Shown in pieces: positions 1-24,498 of a stretch of 25,734 nucleotides of DNA. This stretch comes from a virus. The notes under the pieces were generated by a model, which was given only the letters and a program-made list of their open reading frames with translations, was not told the DNA's origin and did no database searches. Within the stretch, counting starts at the first letter, position 1. Each line of letters begins with the position of its first letter. Where the stretch lies: the IMG/VR virus record IMGVR_UViG_3300030109_004228, positions 1 through 25,734 of that record, one strand, 5' to 3'. The translations under genes were made by a program, and so were the position numbers.

Positions 1-640
1 AAATTTTATCACCTATACTCGTAATATTTAATTTGGATGCCAACAAATCCCCAACAATAGGTATACCTTTGATAAAATCATCTATTGCACCAAATGGTGC
101 TTTTATTAAATCTGATTGGGCCTTGACTTGTTCATTGAGATTTTTCTGTACATCATATTGGGATTGCATCAATTTTAAATAATCTGCCTCATCTGATAAT
201 CCAGCTCTTTTGAGTTCTCTGATTCTCTTTGTGAAATCAAGAGATTGAAATTCTTCTGTTCCTATGGCAGCTTGATTTGCTAAATAATCTTCTGTTATGG
301 ATAACACACCATTTAAAGCTTTAATTTTTTTCTTACTTAGTGCATCACTTTTTTGTTCTAAGGCGAGTATCTGAAATTGTATTGATTGAGTTCCTTTTGC
401 AACCGCCTGTAAAGCTTTATTTCCTTTACCCATCAATTTTATGTCCGCAACAATTTTCTGTGATATATCACGAGCCTCCCTACCAACATTACCGACTTCT
501 TTCGCGGTCTTTGTCATTGCAGCACCAGCCTTAACCATGTCCTTTTCGTAGGCACTCATTTCTTTCCACAACTGTTTATTGGCTGATATCCAATTGTCTA
601 TCTGTTTTTGAGCTTCTTTACTTATCTTTTGTTCTGCCAT
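1..640 (-). CDS. Probable tail tape measure protein, N-terminal part (cut by window edge)
   Basis: The frame stays open from an ATG at 638-640 to position 1, giving 213 codons with no stop, so the gene continues outside the window. The product starts MAEQKISKEAQKQIDNW. It is a charged, largely helical sequence rich in Ala, Lys, Gln and Glu, followed near residues 188-205 by a hydrophobic stretch (GIPIVGDLLASKLNI), a pattern common in tape measure proteins. It begins 22 bases after the stop of the preceding small gene, and the ribosome site is weak (CGGA). The strongest argument is position: it follows the tube gene and a probable frameshifted chaperone pair, where tape measure genes sit in many tailed phages. 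The gene itself is seen directly; the function is inferred. A baseplate hub or other long coiled-coil protein is the main alternative. Confidence 0.6.
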   Translation of the reverse strand, partial: MAEQKISKEAQKQIDNWISANKQLWKEMSAYEKDMVKAGAAMTKTAKEVGNVGREARDISQKIVADIKLMGKGNKALQAVAKGTQSIQFQILALEQKSDALSKKKIKALNGVLSITEDYLANQAAIGTEEFQSLDFTKRIRELKRAGLSDEADYLKLMQSQYDVQKNLNEQVKAQSDLIKAPFGAIDDFIKGIPIVGDLLASKLNITSIGDKI

Positions 641-662: not shown

Positions 663-899
663 TTACATACGGTCAAGGTCTTTTGCCAATTGGTCATAGT
701 CAGGTTCATCTAAACCTTGTAATCGTGCAACCACTTGGTCTTGAATTTTTTCGGCATCTTTAGCCAATTTCATAAGTTTTGGATCTTTTTTGAATAGATT
801 TTTAATAAACTTGTTACCCTTACGTCTACCTATATTGCCCCAAAATTTATCCATAAACTCATATAGAACACTTTCGTTTTTTATTTTATACTTGGGCAT
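663..899 (-). CDS. Small basic conserved phage protein of unknown function
   Basis: A 78-aa product starting MPKYKIKNESVLYEFMDKFW, rich in Lys and Asp and predicted mostly helical, with no membrane segment or catalytic motif. ATG at 899 follows GGAG with about 10 bases spacing. An ATATTTATA element lies about 45 bases upstream (944-953). The gene sits between the tail-chaperone pair and the probable tape measure gene. From memory, small proteins with a similar (K)YKIKN...F...FWG start occur at this place in marine T4-like phages, but no function is known to me. A role in tail assembly is suggested only by location. Confidence 0.7.
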   Translation of the reverse strand: MPKYKIKNESVLYEFMDKFWGNIGRRKGNKFIKNLFKKDPKLMKLAKDAEKIQDQVVARLQGLDEPDYDQLAKDLDRM

Positions 900-967: not shown

Positions 968-1183
968 TTACTTTCGTATTGGAGTTTTGGATTGGGATTT
1001 TTTTCTTGCTTCTTCTATGGCAGCATTTTCATCATTGTATTGTTTTTGCAATCGTTTGAGGTAGTAAGTTCTTAAATATATTGGCATATTATAGACCTCA
1101 CTAAAGTTGAATCCACCTTTACCATGAAAGATTAAAGTGAATATGGCATCATGAATATTTGGTTTATCAGATGGCTGAAGGCC
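968..1183 (-). CDS. Frameshift extension of tail assembly chaperone (no start codon of its own upstream)
   Basis: The +1 frame relative to the 257-aa gene is open for 71 codons from GGC at 1181-1183 to TAA at 968-970. It encodes GLQPSDKPNI...FTLIFHGKGGFNFSEVYNMPIYLRTYYLKRL and a charged tail ending KTPIRK. There is no ATG, GTG or TTG at its beginning. The frame joins the upstream gene exactly at a run of seven T. The aromatic, MP-x-x-LR segment looks like a conserved coding sequence and not chance. A slip would make a 323-aa fusion: 252 residues of the upstream protein plus these 71. An internal ATG at 1085-1087 with GAGG 8 bases upstream could instead yield a 39-aa product. Position between tube and tape measure genes matches the G/GT chaperone pairs of other tailed phages. 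Confidence 0.75.
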   Translation of the reverse strand, partial: GLQPSDKPNIHDAIFTLIFHGKGGFNFSEVYNMPIYLRTYYLKRLQKQYNDENAAIEEARKKSQSKTPIRK

Positions 1184-1940
1184 AAAAAAACTGAGCGGTT
1201 ATCGGAACCGCCACCTCCTCCAAATCTCCATTATCATACTCAATCGTTTCTGATAAATTGACGTCTGGTGTTAATGTTATTAGATTTGCCCTATATGAAA
1301 ATGAATCCATTGATAGAAATTCATTATCCACAAAATTATTTATAAATGCTCTTTCATCATTACCATCAACTGATAATATAGAGGCCTTTAAACGAGTGGT
1401 AATTTCACTTGTAATTCCAGAATCCTTTGAAAGTTTTCTGAGTGCCTTTAATTCGGCATCTATGTTTTTTTCTTCTCGTTGTGTTAATAATTTAAAGGTA
1501 ACTTTTCGTTTGGAGTTTGGTAACTCAAATGAAAATTGATTCTGACCTTTAGGGTGTGATTTAAAATCAATTTTTTTATGTTCTAATTTAGATAAATCTA
1601 TCGTATGTGTTTTTTTCTCATTATTACTTGGATCAGTATATTCAAATTTATAATCCTTACCATATGCAAGTATTCTCGAAGCTATCATTATTGCGTTCTT
1701 ATCACCAATAAGAACATCATCGAGGTTCACTCCCTCAGAAACTATTAATGCCTGCAATAATTTATCCAACACTATACCTTTTTGTATTAAGTTTGCAGAT
1801 GTTAAAATATCTTCTTCTTTTGCCGTCATATATTTTATTTCTACTTGTCCACTTGATAATGGACTATCGGATGGATAAAAATGTCCTTTTGAGGGCAAAT
1901 CTATCACTTCTGTGGGAAACTGGCGTTTTTCTTCTGCCAT
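1167..1940 (-). CDS. gp26/PF12322-like tail or baseplate assembly protein; zero-frame part of a frameshifted chaperone pair
   Basis: A 257-aa product. Residues 10-50 hold LPSKGHFYP followed by VEIKYMTAKEEDILTSANLI. This resembles the family annotated as T4 base plate protein (PF12322, gp26-like), whose conserved core is LPS-x-G followed by a KEEKLL/KEEDIL segment. There is no signal peptide or membrane segment. ATG at 1940 follows AAAGGAGAATATA, a clear ribosome site. The gene lies between tube and probable tape measure genes. Its last codons contain a seven-T run at which translation can pass into a 71-codon downstream frame, as in tail assembly chaperones that coat the tape measure during tube polymerisation. 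I infer a chaperone role over a baseplate hub role from this architecture. The family match is by eye. Confidence 0.75.
   Translation of the reverse strand: MAEEKRQFPTEVIDLPSKGHFYPSDSPLSSGQVEIKYMTAKEEDILTSANLIQKGIVLDKLLQALIVSEGVNLDDVLIGDKNAIMIASRILAYGKDYKFEYTDPSNNEKKTHTIDLSKLEHKKIDFKSHPKGQNQFSFELPNSKRKVTFKLLTQREEKNIDAELKALRKLSKDSGITSEITTRLKASILSVDGNDERAFINNFVDNEFLSMDSFSYRANLITLTPDVNLSETIEYDNGDLEEVAVPITAQFFWPSAI
1184..1190 (-). promoter_or_regulatory. Slippery heptamer TTTTTTT, candidate +1 programmed frameshift site
   Basis: The upstream gene reads CAG TTT TTT TGG here. A tRNA-Phe on the second TTT can move one base forward and again pair with TTT, entering the frame GGC CTT CAG. The zero-frame stop TGA (1167-1169) comes five codons later. 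This is direct sequence evidence for a possible slip; actual frameshifting is inferred. Confidence 0.65.
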
Positions 1941-2262: not shown

Positions 2263-2754
2263 TTAGAATTGTAATATTGCGTAATCGTATCTTAATGTAA
2301 GAGTAATGTCTGCAGGATCAGTAGTGTTTGACCAATCCAAGTCATTAAAATTAGCGTTTACAATAAAAGCCCCTTTTAGTGTCCACTCCTCGACTTTATC
2401 ACCAACGGGTCCTAATACATTAATCGTTATATCTTTTTTGTAGAAGTCTGAATATCCATCTCTACCCGTTACTGATTCATGACCTAATCTTACCCATTCC
2501 ATAACTGCCTGTGCTCCACTTGGAACAATCGGGTCATATAAACTAACTTCTAATTCTTCCCAAGAACCCTTACCTTTGAGATATCGTTTTACATTGATGT
2601 GGTCAAGTTCGATAGTTTCAAAAGCAATAGAAGGTCTATTAGCTGTCTTAATAAGATAGGCTGGAATACCTTCTATATACATGATATACCGATTTTTCGT
2701 TTTCGGTTCAAACGGTGTAAACATTATTTCAGAAGGATCTAATAATTCTGCCAT
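2263..2754 (-). CDS. 19: Tail tube protein (gp19-like)
   Basis: A 163-aa product, the same length as T4 gp19 (163 aa). It forms the inner tube through which DNA passes, with rings stacking inside the sheath. Recognisable features are the N-terminal NRYIMYIEGIPAYLIKTANRP, the KRYLKGKGSWEELEVSLYDP strand-turn region, the WTLKGAFIVNANFNDLDW segment and the C-terminal DITLTLRYDYAI, all typical of the tube fold shared by gp19-type proteins. ATG at 2754 follows TTGGAGATTAAAA. It is the first gene after a strong terminator, with two ATATTTATA elements upstream (2785-2794 and 2861-2870), consistent with separate high expression of this abundant protein. It follows the sheath gene, as in T4. Confidence 0.9.
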   Translation of the reverse strand: MAELLDPSEIMFTPFEPKTKNRYIMYIEGIPAYLIKTANRPSIAFETIELDHINVKRYLKGKGSWEELEVSLYDPIVPSGAQAVMEWVRLGHESVTGRDGYSDFYKKDITINVLGPVGDKVEEWTLKGAFIVNANFNDLDWSNTTDPADITLTLRYDYAILQF

Positions 2755-2931: not shown

Positions 2932-5658
2932 TTATTCAGGAAATGCTGCTCCTGTTGGTTGAACAATGAAGTCCAATACAATAAACTCAGCTGTCCTTGT
3001 TGGTTGGATAAATATCTGTCCAACAAGTTGATTTCTATCAACGACATCTGGTGTATTGTTAGTATCGTCCATTACTACTCTGAATGCTGACAAACCACTA
3101 TTGGCTTGAACTGATTCTAAGAAAGGATTTACGATATTCATAAATCTATTTCTTGTTCCTGCAGTATTTTGTTCGAATACTAAATACCTACTTGAAGATG
3201 CAATAAACTTTTTAAGTTTAATTAACAATCTACGAACATTCACTCTATCAAGTGCTGATGGTCTAGCTTGTAAGGTTTTTTGTCCCCACACACATACACC
3301 TTGACCTGGGAAAGAAGCGATTGGATTAACTCTATCTTCATAAAGGTCATCCCTTTCAGAATGAGTCAATCTTGTTTGTGCTTCTAACACACTTGTCAAT
3401 CCACCACGATTCAAACCAGCTGGTGCGAACCATTCGTGAGCTACCTTATCAGTAAATGCTATTACTCCAGGTAATACTACTGATGGCGGAACCCATACAG
3501 GTAATGATGTATTTCTATCTACAATCTTTACCCAAGGATAATATGCTGCTGCGTAATTCGTATCAAGTGCTGATATAGCTGATGTTGCAGTTGCTATCGT
3601 ATCACCATACTTAGTACAATCTAATACATAGAATGCATCACCACGAGATTCCATCTTTGAAATAGCGTGATTAGTAATCTTACTATGTAATCCATGAACT
3701 ATTCCAGGTGTTACCAACATATTGATATCAAATTCATCAGGATTACTGATTGCGTTAATAGCTTTCTTATAAGCTACTGTACCACCAGTTGATGAGGTTG
3801 AAATGTCAAATCCTTGTGTATTGGTATTGACAATATCTGCTCCTACGAACTTTGGTGCTGCTGGATTAACACTATCGAATCCACCTTGAAATGGAACAAC
3901 AAATTTTCTCTGTTTAATGTGAGAAAGTGTTAAGTTAATCGCTTCTGATGCATCTGAGAATGTGTCACCAAGTGTTGAAGCGTCTGCATGTCCATTAAAG
4001 TTTTCAATACTCATAGTAGTATGGTTTCCACTACCAAAGTTGTTTATAGGTGCTAGATATTCTCCAGCATCTGCGTTAGCGAAGTCGTGTCCAAAGAATA
4101 TATTACTATCAAATTCACCATTACTATTAACCTGTGTGTCTTTAAATGACCAAGTTGGAATGGTTGTGTCTGAACTACCGAATGGATTTGATATTGCTGC
4201 GTGTCCCATTGGAACTACGGATACAGGTACTTCACTATCTGCAATTGCTTGGAAATCAGATACATAGATGTATTTAGACATATTTGGCCAATCACCATTG
4301 TAAGTGAGTTTACCATTTGCGTCTATTGTTACATATCTATCACCAATTCGTCTTGCAAAATAATTAGGACTTGTAGGATCGAAATTTAATCCATCAAATT
4401 GTTCTAATATATTGTCTTTGGTTTGATTATTATCATCTAATCCCGTCTGTCTTAGTTGTAATGAAAATGAACCAAAATCACTACCAGCTATTGAACCAGC
4501 TTTCTTAATATTTAAGATTGCGACTTTGTATTTGTTATTAACATCACTTCCGTGTGAACGAGATTGAACTTTAAACAAGTTATACTTAGAATTGTTTATA
4601 GTTTGTGATTGTATAGATGGTGTACAAGCGTTATCATAAGTTACTGCTAATGAAATTGTTCCATCTTCCACACTTAAATCATCTGTTGCTCCCCAAGATT
4701 TACCACTTTGTTCATACTTGAAGTTCTTATACAGATAAGCTGCTACTGTACTTGTTCCAGATTTTGCTACTTGTGCATCTCTACTAAATACTTCATCAAT
4801 ATATGATGCGTAAGTACTTCCTGTGTGAAATCCAAAAGTATAAGTTGTTGAGGTCAAACTATTTGCTCCCCAATTACTACCACTTAATACAAGTGAAGCT
4901 GATGCCCAATTACCACTAATCGTACTACCTTCTAAATCAGCTGCTCCATTTGCTCCACCTCTTGATGGTGCCAATATCGCAAGTGTTGTAGCTCCTACTG
5001 AAGCCGCTCCACCACTCAATGTAGTAGTTGTACTACCCGATACGAATGTGAAACTATTTGCTGATGTTCCAGTTGAAGATGCACTTAATATAAGTGCACT
5101 ATTCAATGTAGACGATGAATATGATGCTGAATATCCTATATTTGCTGCACCAATTTTATCCGATAACTTATCAGCTGCATCTACACCAGATCCTGTTTGG
5201 AAATAAAAAGTATTTCCTACATCACTTGGAATAGGTGTGTCTACTGCCACAAATGAAAAAACTGTTCCATCTGTTCCAGCTGCGGTAAATGTTACACCTT
5301 CATTGATAGGTGTCTGTATGGTAGCTATTGCATTTGCATTTGTAGCTGCTGTAGTTGCACCAATCTTGATTGCTAATGAATCTGCTGTATATCCAGATGT
5401 GTTAAGAACACGAACTACCGTTACCGTTCCAGCACTCCTTAGATATTGTTCTACTGCGTAAGGTGTGTAAAAACGTTTGTCGGTTGAACCAAACATTTCT
5501 TCAAACTCAGGAAAATTTCGAATAATTGTAGGTACAAATGCTGGGCCTTTTAATGTAGGTCCAACAATTGCTGCTCCAATTTCTGCAATTCCTTGAGGAA
5601 GAAAAGATAGGTCACGTTCTCTCGTAAATACACCCGGACTTACGATTCTTTCTGCCAT
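2932..5658 (-). CDS. 18: Contractile tail sheath protein (gp18-like), enlarged
   Basis: A 908-aa product. The N terminus (SPGVFTRERDLSF, then GIAEIGAAIVGPTLKGPAF and a YAVEQYLRSAG segment) and the C-terminal domain (GVCVWGQKTLQ, RVNVRRLLIKLKKFI, LVFEQNT, RNRFMNIVNPFLE, FIVLDFIVQPTG) are typical of myovirus sheath proteins, which form the contracting outer tube. T4 gp18 is 659 aa. The additional roughly 250 residues lie mainly in the Ser/Thr/Gly-rich stretch after residue 110, probably surface-exposed insertion domains. ATG at 5658 follows ATAGGAGAAATAAA. An ATATTTATA element stands upstream (5726-5735) and a strong terminator follows, so the gene may form its own transcript. The assignment is secure; the insertion limits are estimates. 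Confidence 0.95.
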   Translation of the reverse strand: MAERIVSPGVFTRERDLSFLPQGIAEIGAAIVGPTLKGPAFVPTIIRNFPEFEEMFGSTDKRFYTPYAVEQYLRSAGTVTVVRVLNTSGYTADSLAIKIGATTAATNANAIATIQTPINEGVTFTAAGTDGTVFSFVAVDTPIPSDVGNTFYFQTGSGVDAADKLSDKIGAANIGYSASYSSSTLNSALILSASSTGTSANSFTFVSGSTTTTLSGGAASVGATTLAILAPSRGGANGAADLEGSTISGNWASASLVLSGSNWGANSLTSTTYTFGFHTGSTYASYIDEVFSRDAQVAKSGTSTVAAYLYKNFKYEQSGKSWGATDDLSVEDGTISLAVTYDNACTPSIQSQTINNSKYNLFKVQSRSHGSDVNNKYKVAILNIKKAGSIAGSDFGSFSLQLRQTGLDDNNQTKDNILEQFDGLNFDPTSPNYFARRIGDRYVTIDANGKLTYNGDWPNMSKYIYVSDFQAIADSEVPVSVVPMGHAAISNPFGSSDTTIPTWSFKDTQVNSNGEFDSNIFFGHDFANADAGEYLAPINNFGSGNHTTMSIENFNGHADASTLGDTFSDASEAINLTLSHIKQRKFVVPFQGGFDSVNPAAPKFVGADIVNTNTQGFDISTSSTGGTVAYKKAINAISNPDEFDINMLVTPGIVHGLHSKITNHAISKMESRGDAFYVLDCTKYGDTIATATSAISALDTNYAAAYYPWVKIVDRNTSLPVWVPPSVVLPGVIAFTDKVAHEWFAPAGLNRGGLTSVLEAQTRLTHSERDDLYEDRVNPIASFPGQGVCVWGQKTLQARPSALDRVNVRRLLIKLKKFIASSSRYLVFEQNTAGTRNRFMNIVNPFLESVQANSGLSAFRVVMDDTNNTPDVVDRNQLVGQIFIQPTRTAEFIVLDFIVQPTGAAFPE

Positions 5659-6154: not shown

Positions 6155-6904
6155 CTAATTCACTTTTTTCTTGAGAATTTCTACTTCTTGTTTTAATTCT
6201 TTGATTGATTCTATTAATAAAGGAACGATTCGTTTGTAATCCACTCCTAAATAACCATTTTTTCTCTCTACTACTATTTCAGGAATAACTTTCTGAACTT
6301 CTTGGGCGATAACTCCAACATCGTGTCCTCTTTCTCGTGCCCAACCAGGTGATTTCTCATTCCAATCAAACTCTACTCCTCTAATCCCATCTATCTTATC
6401 TAATGAACCTTGTATAACTTCTATATTGTCTTTAAGTCTTTCATCTGACGAATTAAATGCTACAACATCACCATCTGCTATTATATCACCACTTGCAGAT
6501 ATAGCACCTTCATCGGCACCTATTGAACCACTTACAAAAATACTACCAGTTATTATTGCTCCTGCCGATGACCTAACATTACCAGTTACGGATATACCAG
6601 TATTTGTGGTTTGAAATTTTGTTGCGTTATTATAATTTAAATCTACTGAATTGGCTGCGTTCAGAACCACCATAGTCTTAGAACCAGCTGCATTTTGAAA
6701 TGTCTGTGTTCCTGACCTATAAAATATATTTCCTGTTCCAGCATCTTTTATATAACTATTACTACCATCGTGATGAATTTGTAAATCGTTTTCATCACCG
6801 AAGTTAATTTTAACATCATCGGGTAATAGTATGCCACTACTTGCTGTTACTTGATTGAGAATCGCATCGGATCCCGATACTATGACTTTTTTCCAATTTG
6901 GCAT
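6155..6904 (-). CDS. Tail fibre with C-terminal S74 intramolecular chaperone
   Basis: A 249-aa product. Residues 1-24 (MPNWKKVIVSGSDAILNQV) match the start of the neighbouring 465-aa fibre. Residues 30-150 are Gly/Ser/Asn-rich, with IHHDGSNSYI, as in beta-helical fibres. Residues about 152-249 form the peptidase S74 / endosialidase chaperone domain: SSDERLKDNI, GVEFDW, RGHDVGVIAQEVQKVIPEIV, YLGVDYKRIVPLLIESIKEL, then a coiled coil. In this family the domain trimerises and folds the fibre, then cleaves itself off before the Ser of SDERLK. Ser153 and Lys158 have the S-x4-K spacing of the known catalytic pair. ATG at 6904 follows GGGAGATAAATTA. The receptor target is unknown. Confidence 0.93.
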   Translation of the reverse strand: MPNWKKVIVSGSDAILNQVTASSGILLPDDVKINFGDENDLQIHHDGSNSYIKDAGTGNIFYRSGTQTFQNAAGSKTMVVLNAANSVDLNYNNATKFQTTNTGISVTGNVRSSAGAIITGSIFVSGSIGADEGAISASGDIIADGDVVAFNSSDERLKDNIEVIQGSLDKIDGIRGVEFDWNEKSPGWARERGHDVGVIAQEVQKVIPEIVVERKNGYLGVDYKRIVPLLIESIKELKQEVEILKKKVN

Positions 6905-14762: not shown

Positions 14763-16096
14763 TTTCTACAAGACCAATAACGAGCTTTATGTCTTGGTCC
14801 TGGACTATCACAATTGTGCCTTGCTCTGAATGATTTACGAGCTCCTGGATTAGATTTTCTAATCTTCATCGTTCCACCTTTAGCATCTCCACCTTGTCCG
14901 AAGTTTACCTTTACGACATTACCTTTTGGATTCTTCACATATACTTTAAATTTTTTCACATCACCTTGCATCGGTTTACCGAGTTTGACCTTACGACCTT
15001 GATATTCGGCTTCGACAATACCATCCATTGTGTATCCCCATCCACCATCTTCAGAGAATATATCATAGGATTCTTTCTTTACACAATTAGGATACATCTT
15101 ACCGAACATTTTCTTCATACCTTTTTTCTCGTATCCTTTCCAACAGGCTTCCCATAACTCATCACCCATGTTGTTTTCATTTACGGATTCATTAGCTTGT
15201 TGAAGTGCATCTCTAACTTTACTATGTAATGTCATTCCCTTGAAATACCTTTCAATCTTCTTAACTGCTCCTGTCATATCACCACCCATATCGTGAGCTA
15301 TCTTAACTGCCTTATCTACTTTTGATTTTGGAAACAGAGAATCAAGAAAATCCCCTTTTTTCTCATTTATGGATTCTTTAATCCTTTGAAGTATCTTCGG
15401 ATCTTCATCACCAAACATACTAATCAATGTATCTCGAATCTCACCTCGTGAGTATCTCATCTGTTTTAATTGTCGTTTAGAATTATCTATCGCACCAAAA
15501 ATAGGACTATATCCCTTTTGTTTTAAAAGTTTTTTGACTTGTGGTTTCATCTTTGTGCGTTCATTCACACCCTCTTTTTTAGATTTGTTACCCCAATTCT
15601 TAGCACCTACCTTACGACACTTTACCAATGCTCCACTTGCGTATGCGGAAGGCCATACATCATAACGGGCTTTTACTTTGTGATAACATGCATCCTTTTT
15701 TCCTGCAGCTTCATCAAACTGAGCTTCTGTCATCATTTTTCCTACATAAGATTCTAAATTCATTTTACTCTCCGCTTTCGTTTTTACATTGATTGGTTTT
15801 TTACCACCACCTCTTGTAGATGATGTTCCACCACGACCAGCCTTATTTTGTGCTGCTCGTTTTCTACGAGTAGCACTTGCCTTTTGTTTTTTAGTCATAT
15901 TAGCAGCTTTAGATTTAGGAACACACTTAGCGTATCCTCTTTTCTTACCACTTGTTCCGCAAGGTGGGTGTCCACCACCCTTTTTCTTCTTACCGATGTT
16001 CACCCATTTGTCTTTGAACCATTTTCTAAGGTTTTCATTAACAATATTTCCACAATGAACACACGTGTTATCTGATATAATTTTAGTTATACTCAT
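14756..16096 (-). CDS. Modular Cys- and Lys-rich virion-type protein (DUF5872-like N terminus)
   Basis: A 446-aa product made of short blocks that recur in proteins of large phages. Residues 12-15 give CVHC. Residues 25-60 are DUF5872-like (KWVNIGKKKKGGGHPPCG, YAKCVP). Residues 133-170 contain DACYHKVKARYDVWPSAYASG. Residues 258-300 contain KAVKIAHDMGGDMTGAVKKIE. Residues 318-340 contain CWKGYEKKGMKKMFGKMYPNC. Residues 375-446 end in RKSFRARHNCDSPGPRHKAR followed by YWSC. The blocks are separated by KEGVNE, KESINE and NESVNE (residues 174-179, 240-245, 302-307). ATG at 16096 overlaps the PAP2 stop (ATGA), and GGGAAG precedes it. Function is unknown; basicity and context suggest a head or neck component. 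Confidence 0.8.
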   Translation of the reverse strand: MSITKIISDNTCVHCGNIVNENLRKWFKDKWVNIGKKKKGGGHPPCGTSGKKRGYAKCVPKSKAANMTKKQKASATRRKRAAQNKAGRGGTSSTRGGGKKPINVKTKAESKMNLESYVGKMMTEAQFDEAAGKKDACYHKVKARYDVWPSAYASGALVKCRKVGAKNWGNKSKKEGVNERTKMKPQVKKLLKQKGYSPIFGAIDNSKRQLKQMRYSRGEIRDTLISMFGDEDPKILQRIKESINEKKGDFLDSLFPKSKVDKAVKIAHDMGGDMTGAVKKIERYFKGMTLHSKVRDALQQANESVNENNMGDELWEACWKGYEKKGMKKMFGKMYPNCVKKESYDIFSEDGGWGYTMDGIVEAEYQGRKVKLGKPMQGDVKKFKVYVKNPKGNVVKVNFGQGGDAKGGTMKIRKSNPGARKSFRARHNCDSPGPRHKARYWSCRKW

Positions 16097-16734
16097 TTTA
16101 TCTTCCCTTTGATATTATTAAATATCAAATTACCTACTTTTTCACCAAACTTGGTATCACTTGGAAAATGTGCTCTTGCCATTAATCTTGAATGAGAAAT
16201 CATCTTTCCCAATCTGTTAAATTGTTTTTCGTGAGTTGGATACATTCTACCGAAAACTTTAGAGATAAAAATACCTTGTGTGGAATGACCACTTGGATAA
16301 GATGGTGTTTTAGCACTATCTAATTTATGAATTTTGAAATCAGGTATGTTATAAAATTCACCTAACTGAAATGGTCTTGCTCTATTATACTTGTATTTTA
16401 ACTCATAGATGATTCGACCACTATCTTTAATTAATTCTTTGATATATTTTTTTGGATAATCTAAAGAGTTTTCTTCACAATAATTTTCGAAAACCTTTTC
16501 TATATCATCCCCTTTCATAACAACATCATTTGATATTTTACCATCATTAAAGTTTAACAACCAATGTAATTCATCAATAGTAACTTTGCTTGAATTTGTT
16601 GGTGGTGGATTATATGGAATTATAGGATTGTGAATATATTTTAACTCCCTATCCATCCTTTTTTGATGTTTAGGTTTTATAGAATCACTATATCTAATGT
16701 TATCTAATTTCAATAATTCTTTTAATTTAACCAT
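16093..16734 (-). CDS. PAP2-family phosphatase with head-targeting-like N terminus
   Basis: A 213-aa product with the complete three-part PAP2 / vanadium haloperoxidase phosphatase signature. K-x6-RP is at residues 113-121 (KYKYNRARP), PSGH at 147-150, and SR-x5-H-x3-D at 182-193 (SRLMARAHFPSD). These residues bind phosphate and supply the catalytic His pair in acid phosphatases and lipid phosphatases. There is no signal peptide or membrane helix, so it is soluble like class A acid phosphatases. The N terminus MVKLKELLKLDN resembles the KLKxLLxE leader of three other proteins here. ATG at 16734 follows GGGGGAAATTTA inside the preceding gene's end. Substrate is unknown; nucleotides, phospholipid headgroups or phosphoproteins are possible. 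Confidence 0.9.
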   Translation of the reverse strand: MVKLKELLKLDNIRYSDSIKPKHQKRMDRELKYIHNPIIPYNPPPTNSSKVTIDELHWLLNFNDGKISNDVVMKGDDIEKVFENYCEENSLDYPKKYIKELIKDSGRIIYELKYKYNRARPFQLGEFYNIPDFKIHKLDSAKTPSYPSGHSTQGIFISKVFGRMYPTHEKQFNRLGKMISHSRLMARAHFPSDTKFGEKVGNLIFNNIKGKIK

Positions 16735-24234: not shown

Positions 24235-24498
24235 TTATTTTTTGTATTTTAATCGTTCTTTCTTAATTTTTTCTTTTAGTCCTGCTGTTGGTGGTTCTCC
24301 ACACCAATCTGGGTTGATTTGGTGTTGTTTAATCCAATTACGAACCTTACCCAACTTTCTTTTTTCTGACTTAATTGCTGATGGTTTCTTATAGTATTGT
24401 CTTTCTCTCAACTCTACCATTAAACCACTATCTTTAATTTTTCTTTTTAATAACCTAAGAGCGAACTCTACATTATTCTTTTTTACTTTTACTTCCAA
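24235..24498 (-). CDS. rpsU: Ribosomal protein bS21, phage-encoded
   Basis: An 87-aa product. Residues 9-47 carry the bS21 signature: NNVEFALRLLKRKIKDSG, then VELRERQYYKKPSAIKSEKR, comparable to bacterial ALRRFKRSCEKAG...EVRRREFYEKPTTERKR. bS21 sits on the 30S platform near the anti-Shine-Dalgarno end of 16S rRNA and takes part in initiation. The C terminus is extended past the usual roughly 70 residues by a stretch with NPDWCGEPPTAG and a Lys-rich end. The start codon is TTG at 24496-24498, fixed by GGAGG at 24503-24507. The gene begins 10 bases after the upstream stop. Phage bS21 genes are known from pelagiphages and large phages; exchange into host ribosomes to favour phage mRNAs is the usual hypothesis. 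Confidence 0.9.
   Translation of the reverse strand: MEVKVKKNNVEFALRLLKRKIKDSGLMVELRERQYYKKPSAIKSEKRKLGKVRNWIKQHQINPDWCGEPPTAGLKEKIKKERLKYKK

Follow-up and report, generated by a model that had tools for sequence, protein, structure and literature searches.

The DNA analysed here is a stretch of 25,734 nucleotides (nt), positions 1 to 25,734 of the IMG/VR virus record IMGVR_UViG_3300030109_004228, and we refer to this whole stretch as the window. Near its left end, on the minus strand, a gene for a protein resembling gp26 of phage T4 runs into an open stretch in the +1 frame, and we propose that the two make up a tail assembly chaperone (TAC) gene expressed through a +1 frameshift. Three features define the locus; lengths of proteins are in amino acids (aa) and model confidence is the predicted local distance difference test (pLDDT).

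1167..1940, minus strand: short form TAC-N, a 257-aa T4 gp26-like protein in the 0 frame (PF12322, phrog_150; AlphaFold2 pLDDT 92.4).
968..1189, minus strand: C segment, read in the +1 frame and 73 aa long when counted from the slip, a predicted three-helix unit (conservation in the +1 frame; pLDDT 88.1).
1182..1190, minus strand: slip site TTT TTT TGG (consensus in relatives TTT-YTT-T(GG/AC/TC)).

An earlier note on this DNA had described a 257-aa gene with a TTTTTTT run just before its stop and a +1 frame open for 71 codons without a nearby start. Coordinates and minus-strand reading are confirmed. The open reading frame (ORF) of the short form ends ACC GCT CAG TTT TTT TGG CCT TCA GCC ATC TGA, with its TGA at 1167-1169 and the seven-T run at 1190-1184, shortly 5' of that stop. 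A TAA about 10 nt ahead of the run closes the +1 frame on the upstream side. From the run onward this frame reads FFGLQPSDKPNIHDAIFTLIFHGKGGFNFSEVYNMPIYLR... for 73 codons (71 counted from GGC) up to a stop at 968-970, and its earliest ATG, at 1085-1087, falls in the middle of the conserved part. Fusion of TAC-N with the C segment gives 323 aa.

We compared the site with 275 loci besides the window and T4, drawn from four scans of viral contigs, one scan of genome contigs and phage records; these homologues are mutually related, and the counts below are not independent events. The second segment stands in the +1 frame in 253 of the 254 loci with both segments. In the 254th (L190) an indel within the N part makes the offset 0, and the local frame is +1. 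All 188 unique site contexts tallied carry TTTYTTT, a slippery site that allows the P-site tRNA to re-pair in the +1 frame; the variants are TTTTTTTGG (163), TTTCTTTGG (18), TTTCTTTACC (4), TTTTTTTTCCC (2) and TTTTTTTACC (1). Within the run only base 4 varies, as T or C only, and the A-site codon after it is UGG, UAC or UUC. In all cases tallied, the short form stops 5-12 codons beyond the run's start. Both the T run, with this freedom at base 4, and the frame offset are thus conserved among homologues, the comparison that the earlier note had proposed. Loss of the run without frame compensation, which it had named as one outcome that would count against it, was not seen: the sole exception to TTTYTTT among the loci, the divergent LR756508 (L097), has TTTCTATTC and keeps its second segment in +1.

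Ten loci from genome collections are readable through the site and agree on +1, including a contig of a WOR-3 metagenome-assembled genome (MAG) at 38% identity. The complete arrangement, again with TTTTTTTGGCCT, recurs as a distant copy in the WOR-3 MAG chromosome CP070664.1 (L274), a bacterial contig of 2.8 Mb; this copy is possibly a provirus or the locus of a phage-tail-like particle. The MAG bins that hold loci are labelled Flavobacteria, Woesearchaeota, Thaumarchaeota and WOR-3, possibly through mis-binning. Outside the family, +1 segments of the Bacillus phage SP-15, the Listeria phage LIS04 and the Streptococcus phage GXN1 score weakly against the C-segment profile (10-13 bits) and their -1 frames do not match; their slip sites differ from the TTTYTTT family. 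These scores suggest that the chaperone arrangement may reach beyond the family to such phages. Annotations of isolates overlook the frameshift: Flavobacterium phage immuto has the C segment annotated as a short 'hypothetical protein' (L095, 4851-4961), and Mel-JY01 has it as an overlapping ORF (L096, 4746-4982).

The second segment is under selection as a protein. Past the 0-frame stop, the +1 frame stays open for 61-110 codons (median 84) in the 184 unique homologues with a complete +1 segment, whereas the -1 frame runs for a median of 10 codons. Other ORF ends have medians of 7-9, and at those of the same loci only 1.2% reach at least 58 codons in the +1 frame. Substitutions in the C segment number 6250, 3422 and 12346 at the first, second and third codon positions of the +1 frame, indicating that it is selected as a protein in that frame. 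With this third-position bias, and with conservation from FFGL onward, the segment that had looked conserved from a single sequence proves to be so. The slip sequence is avoided elsewhere: the 117,013 codons of the other ORFs of the loci (L002-L263) contain no in-frame TTT-YTT-T, where 27.5 are expected. TTT-YTT pairs are also depleted there (32 vs 131 expected).

The N part ties the locus to T4. The 257-aa protein matches PF12322 (T4_baseplate) with E 3.6e-07 and 30.5 bits, above the family's cut-off of 24.5, over positions 9-128 of 219, and the baseplate hub family phrog_150 with 2.3e-10. T4 gp26 (208 aa) and gp51 (249 aa) are both strong PF12322 matches, and gp51 consists of a gp26-like part with a C-terminal extension (phrog_634, 'baseplate hub assembly catalyst'); T4 therefore has a short and a long form of the same family as two genes. 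Each of six records searched gave at most one PF12322 match, two of the six being below detection. AlphaFold2 predictions were made with alignment rows that did not include isolate records. Among 771 chains, the top two matches of the short-form model are both phage tail chaperones, YqbN (Z 5.4 over 91 residues) and HK97 gp13 (Z 4.9 over 83 residues); the third is 5ir0, a protein of a phage-inducible chromosomal island (PICI) element, at Z 3.9, and the next, unrelated row stands at 2.9.

Together we consider it very probable that at this locus a T4-related, contractile-tailed phage encodes its tail assembly chaperone, in a short and a long form produced by +1 frameshifting. Most ribosomes would stop at 1167-1169 and release the 257-aa short form, which would correspond to lambda gpG or T4 gp26. 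Others, with peptidyl-tRNA positioned at the T run (UUU UUU UGG C), would advance by one base and re-pair on UUU; GGC would then be the next codon after the slip, giving the 323-aa long form, which would correspond to gpGT or T4 gp51. If the peptidyl-tRNA leaves UUU or YUU and pairs one base further on, with UUU or UUC, this would account for variation at base 4 alone, and only as T or C. We would expect the tape measure protein to be coated by both forms, and tube subunits to be recruited through the C segment. The earlier note had predicted a chaperone fusion of this kind: its site, its frame and the selection on its second segment are conserved across the family, and from these we infer the long product, the +1 step at this site and the chaperone role. 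Its assignment of the gp26/PF12322-like protein to the G role and of the 323-aa fusion to the GT role is supported by the PF12322 match and by the short and long paralogues of T4.

The sequence ahead of the run carries two further elements.

1195..1211, minus strand: 5' hairpin GCGGTT-CCGAT-AACCGC, 6 bp, finishing at its 3' side 4 nt ahead of the T run (covariation in the window clade).
1213..1221, minus strand: GGAGGAGGT, a purine-rich Shine-Dalgarno (SD)-like element, window copy (GAG preference and SD-like core in relatives).

In the clade of the window (24 distinct sequences), 97.2% of the hairpin cells are paired and 13 are changed on both sides, against 4.8 by shuffling; none of 500 shuffles came as high, and pairing is lost when the partner is slid by 1-3 columns. 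The consensus fold (RNAalifold) has -9.4 kcal/mol. The case rests on this comparison, as the window's hairpin alone is not distinct from dinucleotide shuffles (z -0.33). The second clade has many members whose hairpin varies, differs or is missing, and the covariation test is not significant in the DIPLDV subgroup. In the wider family, local stability exceeds that of synonymous shuffles near the site only, and a column-resampled folding test gives a modest difference (-4.35 vs -2.97 kcal/mol, 65% of sequences). A search of Rfam found no match.

Synonymous constraint on the 0 frame, which the earlier note had suggested examining at the overlap, climbs sharply from 33 to 1 nt before the run. The GGAGG core of the element lies about 27 nt upstream of the slip, and an SD-like core is present there in 139 of 188 homologues, with 0/188 in a control stretch. 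Codon -30 is GAG in 123/188 homologues and GAA in 8. The proportion of G or C at the third position of codons -33, -30 and -27 is 62, 81 and 66%, where 14-16% is expected, a preference for GAG-type ends. C or G immediately precedes the run in 91% (19% expected), and the glycine at -9 uses the rare codon GGG.

It is plausible, by analogy, that the hairpin and the GGAGG element stimulate the shift, and this is the weakest part of our explanation. The specific model, in which the conserved hairpin with GGAGG would be a natural stimulator of +1 shifting that refolds against the E site and pushes from behind the ribosome, is tentative and, in our judgement, less likely than not; such an action has to date been demonstrated with engineered hairpins, and it is akin to that of the 5' stem-loop in T4 gene 60 bypassing. 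Other roles were considered and set aside. An SD role like that in release factor 2 (RF2) has the wrong spacing at about 27 nt. The window does fold with GGAGGAG paired to the U run (-13.3 kcal/mol, z -2.35), but selection for GAG over GAA speaks against A-U pairing. Downstream, the excess stability is spread over all folding windows from +7 to +151 and is not localised, and we therefore claim no 3' element.

A homologue of ribosomal protein bS21 is encoded at 24235-24498 on the minus strand of the window, near the major head protein gene (PF01165, 45.6 bits, cut-off 27). In Bacteroidota bS21 governs access to the anti-SD sequence (PMC9976891). As speculation, in Bacteroidota hosts, with an anti-SD concealed on the ribosome by bS21, GGAGG might work on altered ribosomes alone. 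A bS21 homologue is also present in four other records checked (Mel-JY01, LR756508 and the contigs of L027 and L046). Phage immuto and several records with the GGAGG element are without it, and the few records checked give no clear co-occurrence of the two.

Several results weigh against a frameshifted chaperone. The Z scores of the N domain, 5.4 and 4.9, are below 8 and lie in a range where chance matches occur. Structure searches with the confident three-helix model of the C segment (pLDDT 88.1) returned no match. T4 gp51 does not match the C-segment profile, and neither the N nor the C profile gave a match when compared directly with T4 gp26 and gp51; the link with T4 rests on PF12322. Matches of C-segment members to families are weak only: 12 of 43 touch a 'tail assembly chaperone' PHROG and 4 of 43 match phrog_634 (0.049), with nothing found by direct comparison to gp51. 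The tape-measure-like ORF of the window has no family match and is named from gene order and position. Finally, a -2 shift gives the same reading frame as a +1 shift and cannot be distinguished from it by sequence.

A -2 ribosomal frameshift, as in the tail genes of phage Mu, would yield the same fusion with one extra residue, and the PRFect paper points out -2 shifts that present as +1 (PMC10885494). We regard it as unlikely. Restriction of base 4 to T or C is explained by a one-step +1 slip of a YUU or UUU tRNA onto UUU or UUY, and no heptamer of the -2 type is conserved. UUU and CUU are among the slippery +1 codons given in the same paper (PMC10885494). The two would differ at the junction. 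For the slip TTT CTT TGG of immuto, the expected junctions are ...GVSFFGLTPEYR for +1 at the first UUU, ...GVSFLGLTPEYR for +1 at CUU and ...GVSFLFGLTPEYR for -2 after CUU.

Alternatively, the second segment could be a gene in its own right, with a start that ribosomes reach through reinitiation or translational coupling. Some relatives have a +1-frame start just before the run (TTG at -11 in 44/188, ATG at -8 in 12/188), GGAGG is present upstream, and the annotations of Mel-JY01, with overlapping ORFs, and of immuto, with a truncated downstream ORF, are of this kind. However, 101/188 homologues have no ATG, GTG or TTG between the upstream stop of the +1 frame and 10 codons past the slip, and 14/188 have a +1-frame stop immediately ahead of the run, which excludes a separate gene as the general answer. 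The window itself has no +1-frame start before 1085-1087. In addition, the encoded conservation begins exactly at the slip, with FFGL, and a gene driven by its own start would not need an invariant slip. Independent initiation is, in our judgement, very unlikely. The earlier note had held both an independent gene and a lone 39-aa product from the internal ATG to be fatal to its prediction; the first fails on the startless homologues, and the second on the conservation from FFGL and on the replacement of that Met by Phe or Leu in several homologues. In a subgroup (L057-L080) a +1-frame ATG stands directly before the run (TAG/TAA ATG xxG AGT TTT TTT GGC), inside a hairpin of different register, and it could add a low level of free C segment.

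RNA polymerase slippage on the T run would place the fusion in frame through mRNA with one U fewer or two more, and most members do have the seven-T homopolymer. Seven T's are short for such slippage. In 22 of the 188 unique contexts the run is TTTCTTT, with three T's in a row at most and the frame and second segment unchanged, which rules out a slippage mechanism common to the family; a ribosomal event also agrees better with the hairpin upstream and with the constraint on synonymous sites. We give it a very slim chance. A sequencing or assembly error in one continuous gene can practically be discounted: homopolymer runs are error-prone, but the offset is common to loci of many independent metagenomes and to isolate genomes, each frame has conserved codons particular to it, and the end of the short form lies 5-12 codons past the run start throughout the tally.

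The neighbouring genes, all on the minus strand, are those of a contractile tail.

2932..5658, minus strand: tail sheath protein, 908 aa (phrog_23, 2e-73; PF04984, 3.3e-14).
2263..2754, minus strand: tail tube protein (gp19-like), 163 aa, the upstream gene (phrog_4542 tail tube, 1.2e-25; PF06841, 1.4e-06).
663..899, minus strand: small gene, 78 aa, between the chaperone pair and the tape-measure-like ORF (by position).
2..640, minus strand: N-terminal part of a tape-measure-like ORF, cut by the window end (similarity to an ORF of L027).

The order tube, pair, tape measure had been noticed from the window alone and is borne out in a longer relative, L027, which has sheath, tube, gp26-like pair, small gene and a tape-measure-like ORF; there too the tape measure is assigned by position. 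The ORF of the window shares 28.8% identity over 222 aa (E 1.9e-21) with that of L027, of at least 805 aa and in the equivalent place, so that the chaperone pair lies between tube and tape measure genes in the window through position and this similarity. In the isolate immuto, an annotated tape measure gene directly follows the chaperone locus. Relatives have small ORFs of 71, 76 and 80 aa at the position of the 78-aa gene. A 64-aa ORF between the tube and chaperone genes (2044-2238, minus) has a weak holin-like match (phrog_9987, 0.023), and L027 has a 70-aa ORF at the equivalent place. Elsewhere in the window, 6155-6904 (minus) encodes a 249-aa tail-fibre-like protein with a C-terminal Peptidase_S74 (endosialidase chaperone) domain (PF13884, 5.4e-17), and 16093-16734 (minus) a 213-aa PAP2-superfamily phosphatase-like protein (PF01569, 1.1e-09), unusual within a structural gene cluster.

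Short and long tail chaperones made by frameshifting are known, as in lambda G/GT, and for HSTV-2 a +1 shift in a tail chaperone had already been suggested. A 2016 review describes the lambda-type frameshift as widely conserved in long-tailed phages except T4 (PMC5009743). Like the arrangement proposed here, lambda G/GT is a single locus between tube and tape measure, with a short and a frameshift-extended form and a startless second frame, as described there (PMC5009743). Lambda shifts by -1, whereas the family of the window would shift by +1 (or -2) at TTT-YTT-T. With T4 gp26/gp51 the family shares PF12322 and the two lengths, but T4 has two genes where the family has one gene and a frameshift. 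Judging by its title and citing papers, a 2022 study (Vladimirov, Gautam and Davidson, Virology 566:9-15) identified the chaperone genes of T4-like phages and proposed that they work by something other than a frameshift. Poly-T signals for -1 shifting are mentioned in T4-like TAC genes by one of the papers citing it (PMC12846349).

At the level of the site, the closest parallel is RF2 (prfB), in which CUU UGA likewise presents YUU followed by U, with +1 re-pairing on UUU and an upstream duplex near the E site, according to the review (PMC5009743). In the family, however, GGAGG lies about 27 nt upstream rather than 3 nt, and a hairpin stands where RF2 has its SD duplex. Engineered hairpins directly upstream of a slippery YUU-U raise +1 shifting on CUU-UGA in an E. 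coli 70S system (Huang et al. 2018, PMC6321510). Those are constructs, whereas the hairpin of the window clade occurs in natural phages, is kept by covariation and has a putative stimulatory effect. In T4 gene 60, a 5' stem-loop is thought to drive bypassing, according to the same review (PMC5009743). Among contractile-tailed viruses, HSTV-2 has a tail chaperone frameshift described in the review as very likely +1 (PMC5009743), and Vandenendeviridae and Andersonviridae have frameshifted tail chaperones, those of the Adele type with the T-rich motif GTTTTT (PMC12846349). The Adele type shifts by -1, and the passages cited make no claim that these chaperones are homologous to PF12322 proteins.

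The apparent novelty lies in a large family of PF12322 proteins whose genes have a near-invariant +1 site and, upstream of it, a hairpin that covaries. The conserved sites and frames suggest that T4's own chaperone lineage (PF12322) uses frameshifting in a large group of aquatic phages. The gp26/gp51 pair of T4 looks like an equal solution, a short and a long form, reached with two genes. The family also provides a large natural set of +1 sites, with a near-invariant slip and a candidate upstream stimulator, on which the promotion of a forward slip by a duplex behind the ribosome may be tested. For phages of this kind it would correct annotation, in which the second part of the chaperone is presently called a hypothetical protein, truncated, or missed.
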